Assembly: GCF_016924755.1 (NCBI RefSeq)
Contig: NZ_JAFFJX010000003.1
Location: 186,001 to 250,000, forward strand
Origin: Longitalea arenae
GTDB lineage: Bacteria; Bacteroidota; Bacteroidia; Chitinophagales; Chitinophagaceae
Direction of reading: 5' to 3'
Length of the DNA: 64,000 bases
The position numbers were made by a program, and so were the translations under genes. Position 1 is the stretch's first letter. Each line of letters opens with the position of its first letter. Below the pieces are notes generated by a model. It worked only from the letters and a program-made list of their open reading frames with translations, was not told where the DNA came from and did not search any database. Below, in pieces: positions 14,036 to 56,996 of this stretch.

Positions 14036-14178
14036 ACGCTGAAAGTGAAGGCTGCATCCGCCAAAGGCGGACAGGCGCTTACCGCTTAACACAAAACGCT
14101 TAACGCGGAAAACAGGCCATGAGCATGGCGACCCGCGTTAGGCGTTTTGCTTTTTGCATTCCGCCCCGCCAAAGAACC

Positions 14179-14227
14179 ATAAACCACAAACCACAAACTA
14201 TAAACTATAAACTATAAACTATAAACC
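14179..14227. repeat. Tandem 7-mer ATAAACY/ACAAACY, seven copies
   Basis: Seven consecutive 7-mers (ATAAACC, ACAAACC, ACAAACT, then three ATAAACT and one ATAAACC) run up to the stop codon of the histidine kinase gene (complement of 14227-14229) without a gap. Upstream, the word CGCTTAACGC/CGCTTACCGCTTAAC recurs at 14088-14140. This is another member of the stop-adjacent repeat class. Confidence 0.85.
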
Positions 14228-34343: not shown

Positions 34344-34955
34344 TTATTGAATAACCCGGGAAACGGATGTGGAAGCAGACTGCTGGTCATTTACGCCGAA
34401 AGCGATCACCTGGAACCAGTACTTCTCTTTCGATTCAAGACCGGTAAAAGTATAACTGGGTTCGGTGGAGACCTTACTCACCCATACACTCTCGCTTGTG
34501 AGCGGATCGTTCGTATACTGGTGAGCGTAGGCTTTGGCGCCTGCCACTCTTTTAACTGAAGTAACTGCTTCACCAGGACGGTCAATCGTTACTTTCAGGT
34601 CTTTAATGGGCGGTATAGGCTTTGTACCTCTCGCCCGGTTTCGCTCAAAACCGCCGCTGACCAGGATAACAGGGTCGCCTCCCGCTTTGCCTGTTACATA
34701 CTCAGCCAGTTCGGCTAATAAGTCGACCGTTTTCACCCGCAAAGCCTTTCTTTTAAGACGCATTACTTCATCACCGTTACGTGATCGGTAATTGACCTCC
34801 TGGTACTCGGGCAGTACTTTTTCAAGTTCAGCCAGCGCCGCGGGCGCATCCGTAAAATGGGCATTACCGCTCATTTTTCCGGTAACGCCGTACCCAAAAC
34901 TGATTAAATCGTTATCACGGAATTGTTTGTATCCGTGTGTAATTCTGTGTGCCAT
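34344..34955 (-). CDS. FN3-domain protein of unknown function
   Basis: A 203-residue protein without an evident signal peptide. The C-terminal ~95 residues form a fibronectin type III-like domain (PIKDLKVTIDRPGEAVTSVK through YTFTGLESKEKYWFQVIAFG). The N-terminal ~100 residues (TDAPAALAELEKVLPEYQEV, then DLLAELAEYVTGKAGGDPV) are helical and unknown. Small Bacteroidota proteins of this shape are often structural or adhesive. A 30-bp palindrome lies 80 bp upstream of the start. Confidence 0.7.
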   Translation of the reverse strand: MAHRITHGYKQFRDNDLISFGYGVTGKMSGNAHFTDAPAALAELEKVLPEYQEVNYRSRNGDEVMRLKRKALRVKTVDLLAELAEYVTGKAGGDPVILVSGGFERNRARGTKPIPPIKDLKVTIDRPGEAVTSVKRVAGAKAYAHQYTNDPLTSESVWVSKVSTEPSYTFTGLESKEKYWFQVIAFGVNDQQSASTSVSRVIQ

Positions 34956-35333
34956 GATCTTGCATTTTAAAGATTAAGAAATGAAATACCTGCTACCTGC
35001 CCCAACATGAGCGCCGGGGCAAACCAGAGCCATTACACATTTTATTGGCGCCAATAAAGTGTGTCAAAATGAATCCCGGTCGGCCGGGAAACAGTTGATG
35101 GATCCATCGTACTTGTTACAACTGGAAGTTTCATTGCGCCCATCGCATCCTCGTTTCCGGTTTGCCGGTCAGCAGATGCAATGGTTGCCGATTGCAAGCT
35201 GCTACTTGTTTTGTGGAGCGGGGACCTTAATGAACATTGTCAATTGCAAGTACTCATCTGTTTGATTATACATCCTTGTTCATTTGACTGATGACACAAA
35301 TGTAGATCAGTATCCAACGCCCTTTTTCAAAAA
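34956..35333. other. Intergenic region upstream of the FN3 gene
   Basis: About 380 bp without a credible gene. It holds a 30-bp palindrome at 35035-35064 and otherwise no clear structure until the TGTGACG box array begins at 35334. Confidence 0.5.
35035..35064. promoter_or_regulatory. 30-bp palindrome centred on TTATTGGC/GCCAATAA
   Basis: Two 15-bp arms meet with no spacer and only one mismatch (left arm ACACATTTTATTGGC, right arm GCCAATAAAGTGTGT). It lies upstream of the FN3 gene. No T run follows, so an operator for a dimeric regulator or a cruciform site fits better than a terminator. Confidence 0.6.
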
Positions 35334-35448
35334 TGTGACGGAGTTGCCTTCATGATGTGACGGTCTTCGGAAATGGGTGTGATGTTTGGTAAGCTTCCCT
35401 GGGGAAGCTCTACTTTTTATGTGACGGCATTCGAAAATGGGTGTGACG
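35334..35448 (+). promoter_or_regulatory. Helically phased TGTGACG box array upstream of the LytTR gene
   Basis: TGTGACG or TGTGATG occurs at 35334, 35356, 35378, 35420 and 35442, with spacings of 22, 22, 42 and 22 bp. The boxes therefore fall on one DNA face every two helical turns. Part of the array is a direct duplication offset by 64 bp (TGTGACGGnnTTCGrAAATG at 35356 and 35420), and GATGTTTGGTAA recurs at 35381 and 35466. LytTR-family regulators such as AgrA bind 9-bp direct repeats spaced about 21 bp, so these are candidate autoregulatory sites. The last box lies about 130 bp before the LytTR start. Confidence 0.65.
35392..35418 (+). terminator. Terminator-like hairpin inside the box array
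   Basis: AGCTTCCC-TG-GGGAAGCT (35392-35409) is a perfect 8-bp stem, followed by a T-rich run ending TTTTT at 35418 on the plus strand. It sits where one box is missing from the array. It may stop read-through towards the LytTR gene, or be an operator-like palindrome. Confidence 0.45.
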
Positions 35449-35578
35449 AACAGTCGAAAACAGGGGATGTTTGGTAATATTTGTTCTTAATGTTAATGGC
35501 GTATAGTTAACGCATACCTCTCAATAAAAGCTTTTATTTTTTAAATTGTCAGCCATTAACCTATAACCTCTTTCAACT

Positions 35579-35899
35579 ATGCTGAAGCCCTTTTTTGTAT
35601 GGCAGAATAAAATATTGAAAAATATCAACCCGGCAGAGGTCATGTGCCTCCTTACGGAAGGGAATTATACCAAAATAATTCTTTCAAATAAATCTTACTT
35701 TATGGTGCGTTCCAGTTTATCCAGCGCCTTAAAAAAACTTCCTACGGATATTTTTATTAAAACACACCGCTCGATCGCCGCCTCCATTTATTTTATCGAC
35801 AATGTATCCAGGGATCATTTAACGGTCGGCGGCGAGCCTATTCCCATTGCGAGGCAATATTACAAGCGGGTGATCGATCAGCTGAACATTATTGAGTGA
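35579..35899 (+). CDS. Stand-alone LytTR DNA-binding protein
   Basis: A 106-residue protein that is essentially only a LytTR DNA-binding domain. It runs from the N-terminal beta strands through LLTEGNYTKIILSNKSYFMV and SSALKKLPTDIFIKTHRSIA to SRDHLTVGGEPIPIARQYY, the usual end. There is no receiver or membrane domain, so it is not a normal two-component regulator. It is preceded by phased TGTGACG boxes and followed, 6 bp after its stop, by the ~21-nt degenerate repeat array that fills the gap to the next gene. A dedicated pairing of this protein with either array is inference. Confidence 0.9.
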   Translation: MLKPFFVWQNKILKNINPAEVMCLLTEGNYTKIILSNKSYFMVRSSLSSALKKLPTDIFIKTHRSIAASIYFIDNVSRDHLTVGGEPIPIARQYYKRVIDQLNIIE

Positions 35900-35905
35900 G
35901 CCGAA

Positions 35906-36740
35906 TAAGCGGAATGCATTCGTTTAAATGCGTTGCCCTTGCATTAAAGGGAATGAACCTGGTACAATTGAGTAAAATTACCGGTACGATAATCACTGTT
36001 CACTCACTTATAACATTATTTTACCTGTTCATAAATCAAATATCGGGTTCAATGAGCTCGTTTTGCCCGTTTTTAATGTACAAACGGCGCCCAAAACCGT
36101 TTTTATTCCCTTAAAAACGGAAATGATCGCACCAAAAAGTGGATTGATCGTAACAAAAAGGACATATGCAGGCTTTTTAAACTTAATATTGTCAAAATCA
36201 AGTTTAGTATCGTCCATTAATAGCCTACGATCGACAGTAATAAGTTTACTGTTGGCAATAAACAAGTTACTACCAGTGATCAATAACGAAGTTTCAACAG
36301 TCAGCAGCATGGTATCGAAGGTCAACAGCTTACTATCGGCAATCTAAAGCTTATAGTTCCCGTAAAAGGATCAGGCAATGAGAAAACGTAATCATTTGCT
36401 GAGCCGTTTAAAGCTATGAGCAAGTGCGCATAAGCTATTATTGGCAACTAATTGCCTTGTTTTAAAAATAAATGGATCAGTTATGCAAAACAATTGATCA
36501 TAACCGGAAAAAGTACATCTTACTTCCCGGGAAAACAGGTTTCGCACCAGGGAAGGATAATCATTGCATGAAAAAAGGGATCTTTTGAACGAAAGAGCAT
36601 GACCATTTTCCGGCAAAAAGATCTATTCCCGACCAAATAAAAACGATCTCACAAGCAAAAGGGATCATTGCCGAAAAAAAAGAGCTATATCGGCGGAAGA
36701 AAGAACTATCTCCGAAAAAAAATAGTTACCACCGGAGTGG
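35906..36740. repeat. Degenerate ~21-nt tandem array, about 40 units
   Basis: The whole 835-bp space between the LytTR stop and the DUF4861 gene end can be cut into successive ~21-nt units. A CG-containing core (mostly ATCG, TCGG or CCG) falls at 36044, 36128, 36149, 36211, 36232, 36316, 36337, 36505, 36611, 36630, 36672, 36691, 36713 and 36733. The intervals are 84, 21, 62, 21, 84, 21, 168, 106, 19, 42, 19, 22 and 20, all within about 2 nt of multiples of 21. Units at 36242, 36326 and 36431 share TTACTGTTGGCAATAA-like sequence. A-rich segments close most units from 36490 on, giving phased A-tracts. No frame stays open throughout, but open stretches on both strands read as heptapeptide repeats. 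Confidence 0.75.
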
Positions 36741-36821
36741 CTACTGACCCATTTCTTTTTCTATAAACTGCTTAAACCCCTCCAGCGTCGTAAAACGGCT
36801 ATCACTTTTTTCCCAACCGGC
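36741..36821 (-). pseudogene. Orphaned C-terminal tail of the DUF4861 gene
   Basis: Directly after the TAG that ends the DUF4861 reading frame, the same frame continues AGWEKSDSRFTTLEGF, KQFIEKEMGQ and then a second TAG (complement of 36741-36743). The tail is of sensible amino-acid composition and resembles the usual end of DUF4861 proteins (an aromatic, GW, then a helical end). A TAT or TAC in place of the first TAG would give FYAGWEKSD. It therefore looks like the lost last 26 residues of the upstream gene. Confidence 0.65.
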
Positions 36822-53590: not shown

Positions 53591-53695
53591 CCATTCACCA
53601 TTGACCATTCACCATTCACCATTGACCATTCACCATTCACCATTGACCATTCACCATTCACCATTGACCATTCACCATTGTCTATTGTCTATTGT
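53591..53695. repeat. Tandem 7-mer CCATTSA, fifteen copies, overlapping the LacI stop
   Basis: Units follow the order CA, GA, CA, CA, GA (after CCATT), giving a 21-nt higher-order period, and degrade to CTATTGT at the right end. The last units overlap the LacI stop codon (complement of 53689-53691) and its final Gln codon, so the repeat has grown into, or started from, the gene end. It lies in the gap between LacI and SusC and may affect read-through between them. Confidence 0.9.
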
Positions 53696-55118: not shown

Positions 55119-55416
55119 AAGCAAGGGCAAGGGGCAATAGACAATAGGCAATAGGCAATTCTCAATGGGCAATACACAATTGACAATAGGCAATGCAATA
55201 TGCAATAGACAATTGACAATGGGCAAGAAGCAATCGCAATGGGCAATGGGCAATACACAATAGGCAATGGGCAATGCAATATGCAATATGCAATAGACAA
55301 TTGACAATAGGCAATGCAATATGCAATAGACAATTGACAATGGGCAAGAAGCAATGGCAATGGGCAATGGGCAATGCAATACGCAATAGACAATACGCAA
55401 TAAACAATAAACAGTA
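55119..55416. repeat. CAATRGR short tandem repeats with a 121-bp higher-order duplication
   Basis: About 300 bp of 6-8-nt units such as CAATGGG, CAATAGA, CAATTGA and CAATGCAATATG. A block beginning ACAATTGACAATAGG at 55176 recurs at 55297 with near identity for about 60 nt, showing a recent segmental duplication within the tract. Its CAATAGA units match the CTATTGT units at the end of the 53591-53695 tract in reverse complement. All three forward or reverse frames give only repetitive Cys/Leu/Ile peptides. Confidence 0.9.
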
Positions 55417-55497
55417 AGGCTAGATGATGGGTTGCTGCCTGCCAGCGGGGCCGAACTGATAACTGTACACTTAACTGCAACTGAGAACGATTGACTT

Positions 55498-56520: not shown

Positions 56521-56930
56521 TATTAGTTCAAAGTTACCGGTTGCCGGGTTCCTGTCGCCGGTTGCCACCGGCGTTCAGGTTACAGGTTACAAGTTGCAGG
56601 GGAAGGCGCTTTAAAAGAAGTGATCTGGTTATAAAATGTGTGTGTCTATAACAGGAGCTGTTACAGGTTACAGGTTACAAGTTACACGGAAAATGCGCCC
56701 AAAAAGAATGAACCTGGTTATTAAACGTGTGCCTCGATCACAAGAGCCGTTACAGGTTGCGACAGGTTACAGGTTACAAGGGCTACCGGTGCAGGAGGCT
56801 GAAATGCATACAATTAAAAAGATGGAAGACCCTGAAACCTGAAACCTGCAACCTGCAACCTGAAACCTGAAACCTGAAACCTGTAACCTGAACCTGCAAC
56901 CTGAAACCTGAAACCTGCAACACATCGCCC
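56521..56930. repeat. ACAGGTT / AACCTGT repeat region with an 89-bp degenerate duplication
   Basis: Between LacI 2 and the SNF2 gene. The left part carries ACAGGTTACAGGTTACAAG words. A ~64-nt segment starting GCGCTTTAAAAGAA at 56606 recurs in diverged form at 56695 (GCGCCCAAAAAGAA), each ending in GTTACAGGTT. The right part (56829-56920) switches to the opposite orientation (CCTGAAACCTGCAACCTG words), so the two sides can base-pair. No gene is seen. Confidence 0.85.
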
Positions 56931-56996
56931 CTGCCCCCTGCCTTTATATTTCCACACCTGTGCAAAAAACGGATCGCCCAAATGGCCCCGTCCCCC

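Follow-up and report, generated by a model that had tools for sequence, protein, structure and literature searches.

The region studied lies within a window of 64,000 nt (the whole stretch of DNA that was analysed) and comprises two divergent genes, a set of short boxes between them and a long repeat array. In order of position, the features are:

34344..34955, minus strand: gene for a 203-aa protein with an N-terminal helical bundle (residues ∼1 to 100) and a C-terminal fibronectin type III (fn3) domain (∼110 to 203), from the open reading frame, an AF2 model and fn3 matches
35297..35304, minus strand: promoter-like TAnnTTTG site (TACATTTG) directed toward the 203-aa gene and located 29 nt to the left of box 1
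35334..35340, plus strand: TGTGACG box 1, exact motif, −245 from the start codon
35356..35362, plus strand: TGTGACG box 2, exact motif, −223 from the start codon
35378..35384, plus strand: TGTGATG box 3, exact motif, −201 from the start codon
35420..35426, plus strand: TGTGACG box 4, exact motif, −159 from the start codon
35442..35448, plus strand: TGTGACG box 5, exact motif, −137 from the start codon
35579..35899, plus strand: gene for a LytTR-only regulator of 106 aa (Pfam PF04397, 6.3e-11)
36049..36741, minus strand: degenerate, helically phased 21-nt array of about 33 units, non-coding, reading toward the 203-aa gene, from autocorrelation and register

An earlier reading made from the letters alone (the sequence-only reading) had described the gene at 35579-35899 as a LytTR-only gene of 106 residues, and the Pfam match confirmed it. 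The PF04397 profile matched residues 14 to 102 with 42.8 bits, compared with a curated cut-off of 22.6, and according to the open reading frame and Pfam the product consists of this LytTR DNA-binding domain and little else. Among the 27 LytTR matches of the genome, none had a shorter open frame than this gene, with its 110 codons; the remaining 26 had at least 229. Full-length orthologues of the protein were found in six relatives of the genus, with identities of 54 to 78%, the 78% value corresponding to G001, which belongs to the same genus, Niastella, as the window genome. A search of PDB sequences with the protein gave no match at 0.01, and an Rfam scan of the window gave none at gathering score.

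A further genome, G003, yielded two partial copies of the LytTR gene. Its contigs L041 and L042 both break off within a LytTR-only gene, at one and the same residue, and its contigs L096 and L097 end 338 bp past the first box. Since the contig ends coincide within each pair, G003 probably carries two near-identical copies of the LytTR unit.

Boxes before LytTR-only genes

The five TGTGAYG boxes, between 35334 and 35448, showed spacings of 22, 22, 42 and 22 nt, just as the sequence-only reading had given them. Three pairs of boxes 22 nt apart were present in the window, versus none in 100 dinucleotide shuffles. Because plain autocorrelation of the box region was weak (z of 2.5, and of 1.2 in a second test in which 10 of 100 shuffles were equally high), support for the window boxes comes from the exact motif and from the relatives. 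In the six orthologous loci (L035 to L040) TGTGAYG boxes also preceded the LytTR gene, and the helical-lag signal in front of it reached z values of 6 to 12 in five loci and 2.3 in L035. At least two boxes were located upstream of all seven intact LytTR-only genes of this first family that were examined. When all the Niastella LytTR-only genes were considered, upstream helical-lag arrays with z of at least 4.0 were found in 11 out of 13, the exceptions being the window (1.2) and L035 (2.3), versus none in four unrelated LytTR-only genes of other genera. The claim that a LytTR-only gene and helically spaced boxes make a recurring unit was thus sustained, and the idea of spaced LytTR sites that accompanied it fits the upstream boxes.

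The TAnnTTTG site resembles the −7 promoter consensus of Bacteroidota. Of 35 box loci, 19 have such a site exactly 29 nt from box 1, and the number rises to 25 when distances of 51 and 114 nt are included; three of the 35 have no match within 180 bp.

Most of the loci L035 to L040 contain, between the boxes and the gene, an 11-bp CCTC array with GAGG boxes opposite it around a palindrome, a half of the element that is absent from the window (both by eye). In L038, L039, L040, L101, L103 and others, CCTC boxes and GAGG boxes, both with a period of 11 bp, stand on opposite sides of a long palindrome (CCTCTTTGGGTCCTCGG enclosing a short loop), which is clearest in some copies. The divergent neighbour in L035 to L040 encodes a 189-aa protein, and that in the window the 203-aa protein. 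The structural model of the 189-aa protein was poor (pLDDT of 60.7), and a fold search with it was uninformative.

A second LytTR-only family (family B) has six members of about 127 to 149 aa, none of which was in the training set of the box-array sequence model. This model, made from 26 training rows and used to score at most 92 candidates per genome, marked 65 places, spread over all 10 genomes of the genus, and nothing in 29 outside genomes, and five of its nine weakest matches turned out to be upstream of five of the six family B genes. The boxes located there are TGGGACG-like, at 22 nt. An inverted 11-bp array of CATGTGT/ACACATG was clearest, by eye, in four of the six family B loci. Five of the six loci contain a divergent homologue of the 189-aa protein (blastp, 1e-26 to 4e-36), and the sixth, L045, contains a 203-aa protein 38% identical to that of the window. 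The TGTGAYG motif gave only two stray matches in ten further LytTR-only loci, of which six belong to family B and four to other genera. Outside the genus, LytTR-only open reading frames of 106 to 114 aa stood near 189-aa relatives at 3 of 14 fetched loci, in 2 of 8 genomes (G017 and G024), one of them 3.6 kb off. Four of the 14 loci of 189-aa relatives in other genera exceeded the array threshold, all at lag 11; upstream 11-bp arrays were seen in L166, where AGTGGT recurs every 11 bp, and in L169, L173 and L178.

Given that the boxes recur before LytTR-only genes of the genus beside a divergent promoter, and in a diverged version before the second family, they are likely to be the LytTR operator. 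The comparison of loci makes a good case for a unit, in the genus, composed of the boxes, the LytTR-only gene and a small divergent protein. From this recurring unit, and by analogy with the LytTR direct-repeat sites reported for LRS promoters (PMC6193735), we infer that the LytTR protein would bind the boxes.

LytTR Regulatory Systems (LRS), as reported by Zou et al. 2018 (PMC6193735), comprise a LytTR regulator and direct repeats separated by about 12 bp and located just upstream of a promoter, and show autoregulation. Similarly, the window boxes lie 22 nt apart, with the TAnnTTTG site 29 nt off on the other strand and directed toward the divergent gene, so that repeats of the LRS type (∼21 to 22 nt) are found near a promoter. 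However, no small co-directional membrane-protein gene, as in the LRS membrane-inhibitor operon, was seen next to the window regulator; among open reading frames of at least 120 aa, the next one after the regulator was on the other strand in the window and in five of the six orthologous loci, and in L035 it was a same-strand frame of 896 aa. The window regulator instead has as its divergent neighbour a small protein of Ig- or fn3-like type, and has five boxes instead of one pair, with boxes also dispersed through the genome.

Dispersed TGTGAYG elements

A search for box pairs 22 nt apart rendered 62 matches in 9 of the 10 genus genomes; the reversed pattern rendered 5, and 29 outside genomes a single match. 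The boxes are therefore also dispersed in the genomes of the genus. Some occupy convergent gaps at a distance from every LytTR-only gene, and they are also present in G009, which is without the first LytTR family. The 26 fetched box copies with no LytTR-only gene in the fetched stretch occupied convergent, tandem and divergent gaps with varied neighbours, two of them near contig ends. A role of these copies as ordinary operon promoters was not supported, their left-hand neighbours lying in either orientation, about half each (by eye, with naive ORF calls).

Such copies, with their varied neighbours, would also be expected if TGTGAYG elements were mobile promoter elements with no relation to LytTR, and the one beside the gene stood there by chance. 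In agreement with this, a boxA-like 13-mer (AGTTCTTTGACAT) was matched in at least 11 of its 13 letters to the left of the boxes in 17 of the 26 dispersed copies versus none of nine LytTR loci, although its consensus was read off the same loci and some copies are near-duplicates. Chance placement is nevertheless at odds with the presence of two or more boxes before every one of the seven intact first-family genes, and with the diverged version that precedes the second LytTR-only family. We consider this explanation unlikely, and prefer to read the boxes as the probable LytTR operator.

Exact copies of the 13-mer in four genomes numbered 11, of which 4 were directly before 23S rRNA; we take the 13-mer to resemble the boxA of rRNA. 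The dispersed elements bearing it fall in L083 to L095 and L098 to L110, and they may start antitermination-protected transcripts into the adjoining DNA. Two loci of G004 found by means of the 13-mer, L145 and L147, both have a promoter-like site. L145 contains GTGTCTA-type boxes together with GTTCGGA/TCCGAAC repeats, perhaps a third class of element.

The 21-nt array and the 203-aa protein family

For autocorrelation over 35900-36740, the z values at lags 21 and 42 were 8.6 and 5.8, respectively, with 33 units in register between 36049 and 36741. The ∼21-nt repeats announced by the sequence-only reading are thus real, but they begin about 150 bp past the LytTR gene rather than directly after it. 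The WW dinucleotides of the array showed a 10.5-bp period, A/T steps recurring every 10 to 11 bp, with a power of 32.8 compared with a maximum of 17.8 in a sample of 14,953 windows (380 kb of the same genome). Some heptamer arrays in this sample reached a higher lag-21 value, but with a high lag 7 that the window array does not have. Across 335 kb from other Niastella loci, the 10.5-bp A/T value reached at most 23.6, and most of the top matches were on dispersed box elements. The maximum of the predicted bend in the window, computed with wedge values, lay inside the array, but on average the array ranked no higher than the 78th percentile.

Phased A-tract clusters of bacterial genomes share with the array the phasing of A/T steps with the helix; as described, for example, in PMC4132750, they are signals of about 100 bp spread over genomes, and DNA bending or packaging is proposed for them. 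The window array, by contrast, extends over 690 bp and has the strongest 10.5-bp signal of the sampled 380 kb. Heptamer tandem arrays distinct from the 21-nt array are also present in the window, at 14175-14227, 53591-53679, 55133-55417 and 56572-56942.

The 203-aa family gave 74 matches in 9 of the 10 genus genomes (8 in the window genome, 25 in G002 and none in G004), and a phylum-wide search found it in 7 of 296 genomes. The AF2 model of the protein (60 relatives) had a mean pLDDT of 91.4 and a pTM of 0.55 and was confident within the domains. The 50 PDB matches listed for its fold were fn3-type alignments, and the few long alignments in the viral structure list had poor rmsd; no DNA-binding fold was recognised in the protein. 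No family of PHROG, PADLOC or NCBIfam covered the protein, the matches being fn3-type or marginal.

To look for arrays near these genes, 48 loci fetched from the 74 matches were combined with the window and L045 into a Niastella set of 50. All lags from 10 to 60 were considered, with a threshold set at the 99% null of 342 random segments of the window genome, and the search reached 2,000 bp in the window and L045 and 1,100 bp in the remaining loci. Upstream arrays were detected in 33 of the 50 loci (31 of 48 when the window and L045 are left out), and downstream arrays in none of the 50; 17 loci had no array over threshold. The best lags were 21 (11 loci), 42 (10 loci), 41 (8 loci) and 20, 22, 40 and 45 (one each). 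Hence 32 of the 33 arrays fall at 20 to 22 (13 arrays) or 40 to 42 (19 arrays), which includes the two-turn spacing of iteron and ParR sites. Random intergenic gaps of at least 300 bp passed in only 2 of 51 cases, a control that is not fully matched, since these gaps are shorter (median of 489 versus 811 bp) and both null and control come from the window genome only.

In other genera, 9 of 12 loci (of 15 matches) passed and 3 had no array over threshold. Eight of the nine had lags of 21 or 42 and one had 54, eight of the nine coming from a single genome, G029. The five loci from the four further genomes of the phylum-wide search all had a lag-42 array upstream and none downstream; these include loci of G485 and G547, which are related to the window only at the level of phylum. 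Arrays upstream of 203-aa genes occur without any LytTR gene between.

The unit motifs are mostly private. By eye, the TRF units of five loci were unrelated and the layouts of eight loci differed, and the profile correlation of the other arrays with that of the window had a median of 0.39 and a maximum of 0.58. Several array units contain dyads. The G005 array L199 looks like the window array by eye, but its profile correlation (0.57) was only the third highest, and we do not claim that the two arrays are orthologous. The closest relative of the window 203-aa protein (64% identity) is encoded in G002, and its locus, L198, lacks an array at threshold.

Three further copies of the window array, whole or partial, were located elsewhere in the genome, the four copies sharing one unit. 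Copy C4 follows an unrelated 671-aa gene and has no LytTR gene beside it, in C33b part of the array accompanies a decayed LytTR gene, and C23 is truncated at a contig end (array to within 124 bp), so a LytTR neighbour cannot be read there. None of the three adjoins any of the eight 203-aa genes detected in the genome, which weakens a strict tie between the array and the 203-aa family.

The register of the array is kept as its sequence drifts, and for no coding reason. The copies differ by 101, 32 and 50 substitutions with no indels, whereas in their flanks 45 mismatches come with 7 gap openings, and in pairs of dispersed box elements 1,813 mismatches come with 120. The comparison of the window array with C4 alone differs from the dispersed-element pairs (p of 0.004, for pairs that are not independent). 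The 101 substitutions are distributed over codon positions as 32/35/34, and stops interrupt all three minus-strand frames, which led us to reject a coding reading of the window array. A period of 21 nt equals seven codons, and the arrays in general might encode, or once have encoded, heptad-repeat peptides: one minus-strand frame stays open over a stretch of the window array and shows a seven-residue pattern, and the G460 array sits in an open frame that runs into an fn3 gene, with LETPSNA-like repeats. Apart from the stops and the flat codon phase, however, 11 of the 33 Niastella arrays have lags of 20, 22, 40 or 41, which are not multiples of three, and TRF gave a period of 41 in L219 and L207. 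We regard such a coding origin as highly improbable.

The sequence-only reading had joined the LytTR protein and the downstream array in one unit, with many copies of LytTR coating one or both arrays. The helical spacing common to boxes and array, the decayed LytTR gene of C33b and the downstream array of 21-nt type at two LytTR-only loci, the window and L045, agree with it. These are, however, the only two of 13 LytTR-only loci with such an array, and also the two in which the divergent neighbour is the 203-aa protein; in the other 11, the arrays expected beside homologous LytTR genes were missing from the downstream side. In addition, the C4 copy does without an adjoining LytTR gene, no TGTGAYG box recurs in the 21-nt units by eye, and similar arrays precede 203-aa genes with no intervening LytTR. 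The comparison of orthologues and paralogues thus led us to reject the single unit, and a LytTR-coated platform is very unlikely. Since such arrays recur upstream of 203-aa genes across loci and genera, the window array, which resembles them, is best read as belonging to the gene at 34344-34955, the LytTR unit being placed between the two.

A different origin would be that of neutral minisatellites or MITE-like elements inserting or expanding upstream of these genes. The window array has four whole or partial copies in the genome, three of them away from 203-aa genes, and L242 has ten units at 95% match, as in a young minisatellite. A related case is BrickBuilt, a minisatellite MITE of Porphyromonas gingivalis (PMC4596501), a multicopy intergenic array of one 23-nt unit with leader and tail ends and reported promoter activity. 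Like it, the present arrays are multicopy and intergenic in Bacteroidota genomes; unlike it, they have spacings of 20 to 22 or 40 to 42 nt and mostly differing motifs, and are associated with one protein family. No unit is common to all loci, although the four copies of the window array do share one. Neutral minisatellite growth would explain the repeats and the copies away from the family, but not the near two- or four-turn spacing across unrelated sequences and distant genera, nor the upstream bias (33 of 50 versus 0 of 50 downstream), and degenerate copies that stay in register without indels also argue against it. On balance we find it rather unlikely.

The main functional rival is an action of the arrays at the RNA level, in which a leader or antisense transcript would fold into serial hairpins and so control the downstream gene. 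Three arrays in all were folded: the dyad half-sites of L219 and L242 folded strongly (z of −6.6 and −15.3, respectively), but the window array, folded in part, gave only −2.3. The 10.5-bp A/T phasing and the spacings of 20 to 22 and 40 to 42 fit the geometry of the DNA helix better than RNA pairing, and we hold an RNA role to be quite unlikely.

Proposed mechanism and comparison with known systems

The reading that we favour, with a probability that we judge evenly balanced, combines a LytTR unit, whose boxes would be the operator of the divergent promoter, with an abutting 21-nt cis array of the type found with the 203-aa family. Thus, the LytTR protein would bind the TGTGAYG boxes as direct-repeat sites, one per second helical turn, and the bound protein would switch the divergent promoter toward the 203-aa gene, most likely, and probably its own promoter. 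For its part, the array would be a cis-acting assembly site, either a private operator or a DNA-wrapping site, on which a protein would bind cooperatively on one face of the helix, wrapping or bending the DNA and controlling the adjacent gene. Cooperative assembly on one face is suggested by the two- or four-turn spacing, the private motifs, the dyad half-sites, the upstream position and the kept register. In the window the LytTR unit lies between the 203-aa gene and the array, so that the two phased systems would abut.

The 203-aa protein is the first candidate for binding the array, because it is the sole protein seen to recur at array loci; no other family of open reading frames was present in more than 4 of the 62 locus entries compared by blastp. 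DNA binding by its helical bundle is a guess, the PDB matches being of fn3 type and the long viral alignments of poor rmsd. A wider proposal, which we find doubtful as a whole, is that each copy of the helical-bundle/fn3 protein would recognise its own private array of dyad half-sites with two-turn spacing, polymerise on it and wrap the DNA upstream of its own gene. Diverged motifs would then prevent cross-reaction within a genome, and LytTR-only regulators with two-turn boxes would have been recruited between genes and arrays.

Plasmid iterons and centromeres of the ParR/parC type are direct repeats at one or two turns, beside the gene of their binder and with a sequence private to each replicon. 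The arrays described here share with them the helical-turn spacing, the private sequence and the adjoining gene of a candidate binder, whose binding is presumed. In contrast, these arrays are chromosomal, with up to 25 family members per genome, and no replication or partition gene was recognised beside them among the open reading frames compared by blastp. The TAACTGA heptamer repeats are likewise intergenic direct repeats upstream of genes, present also in some Bacteroidota, but have a fixed heptamer, and neither helical spacing nor a linked protein family is described for them in the part of the source consulted (PMC4679880).

Among the matches listed in the literature searched, which covered few subscription papers, none described arrays of this type next to LytTR-only or fn3-like genes. 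If the proposal is correct, it would represent a new kind of gene-plus-site pairing, with phased arrays mostly private to their locus, in more than one class of Bacteroidota. It would be testable with one protein and one array, the diverged pairs offering a natural series for the study of specificity. Much of the repetitive DNA that precedes these genes in Niastella would also be explained, and LytTR-only regulators would gain a definite group of promoters as their targets.

Two minor observations concern individual arrays. In L257 (G460) the array is palindromic and lies inside an open frame of 453 aa, with LETPSNA-like heptads, that continues into the fn3 gene. The 21-nt arrays of L034 (near its end) and L045 (3′ of the LytTR gene) end nearly alike, in GGGTCTATTCAATA-ACTGTGTCA, perhaps the end of an insertion sequence.
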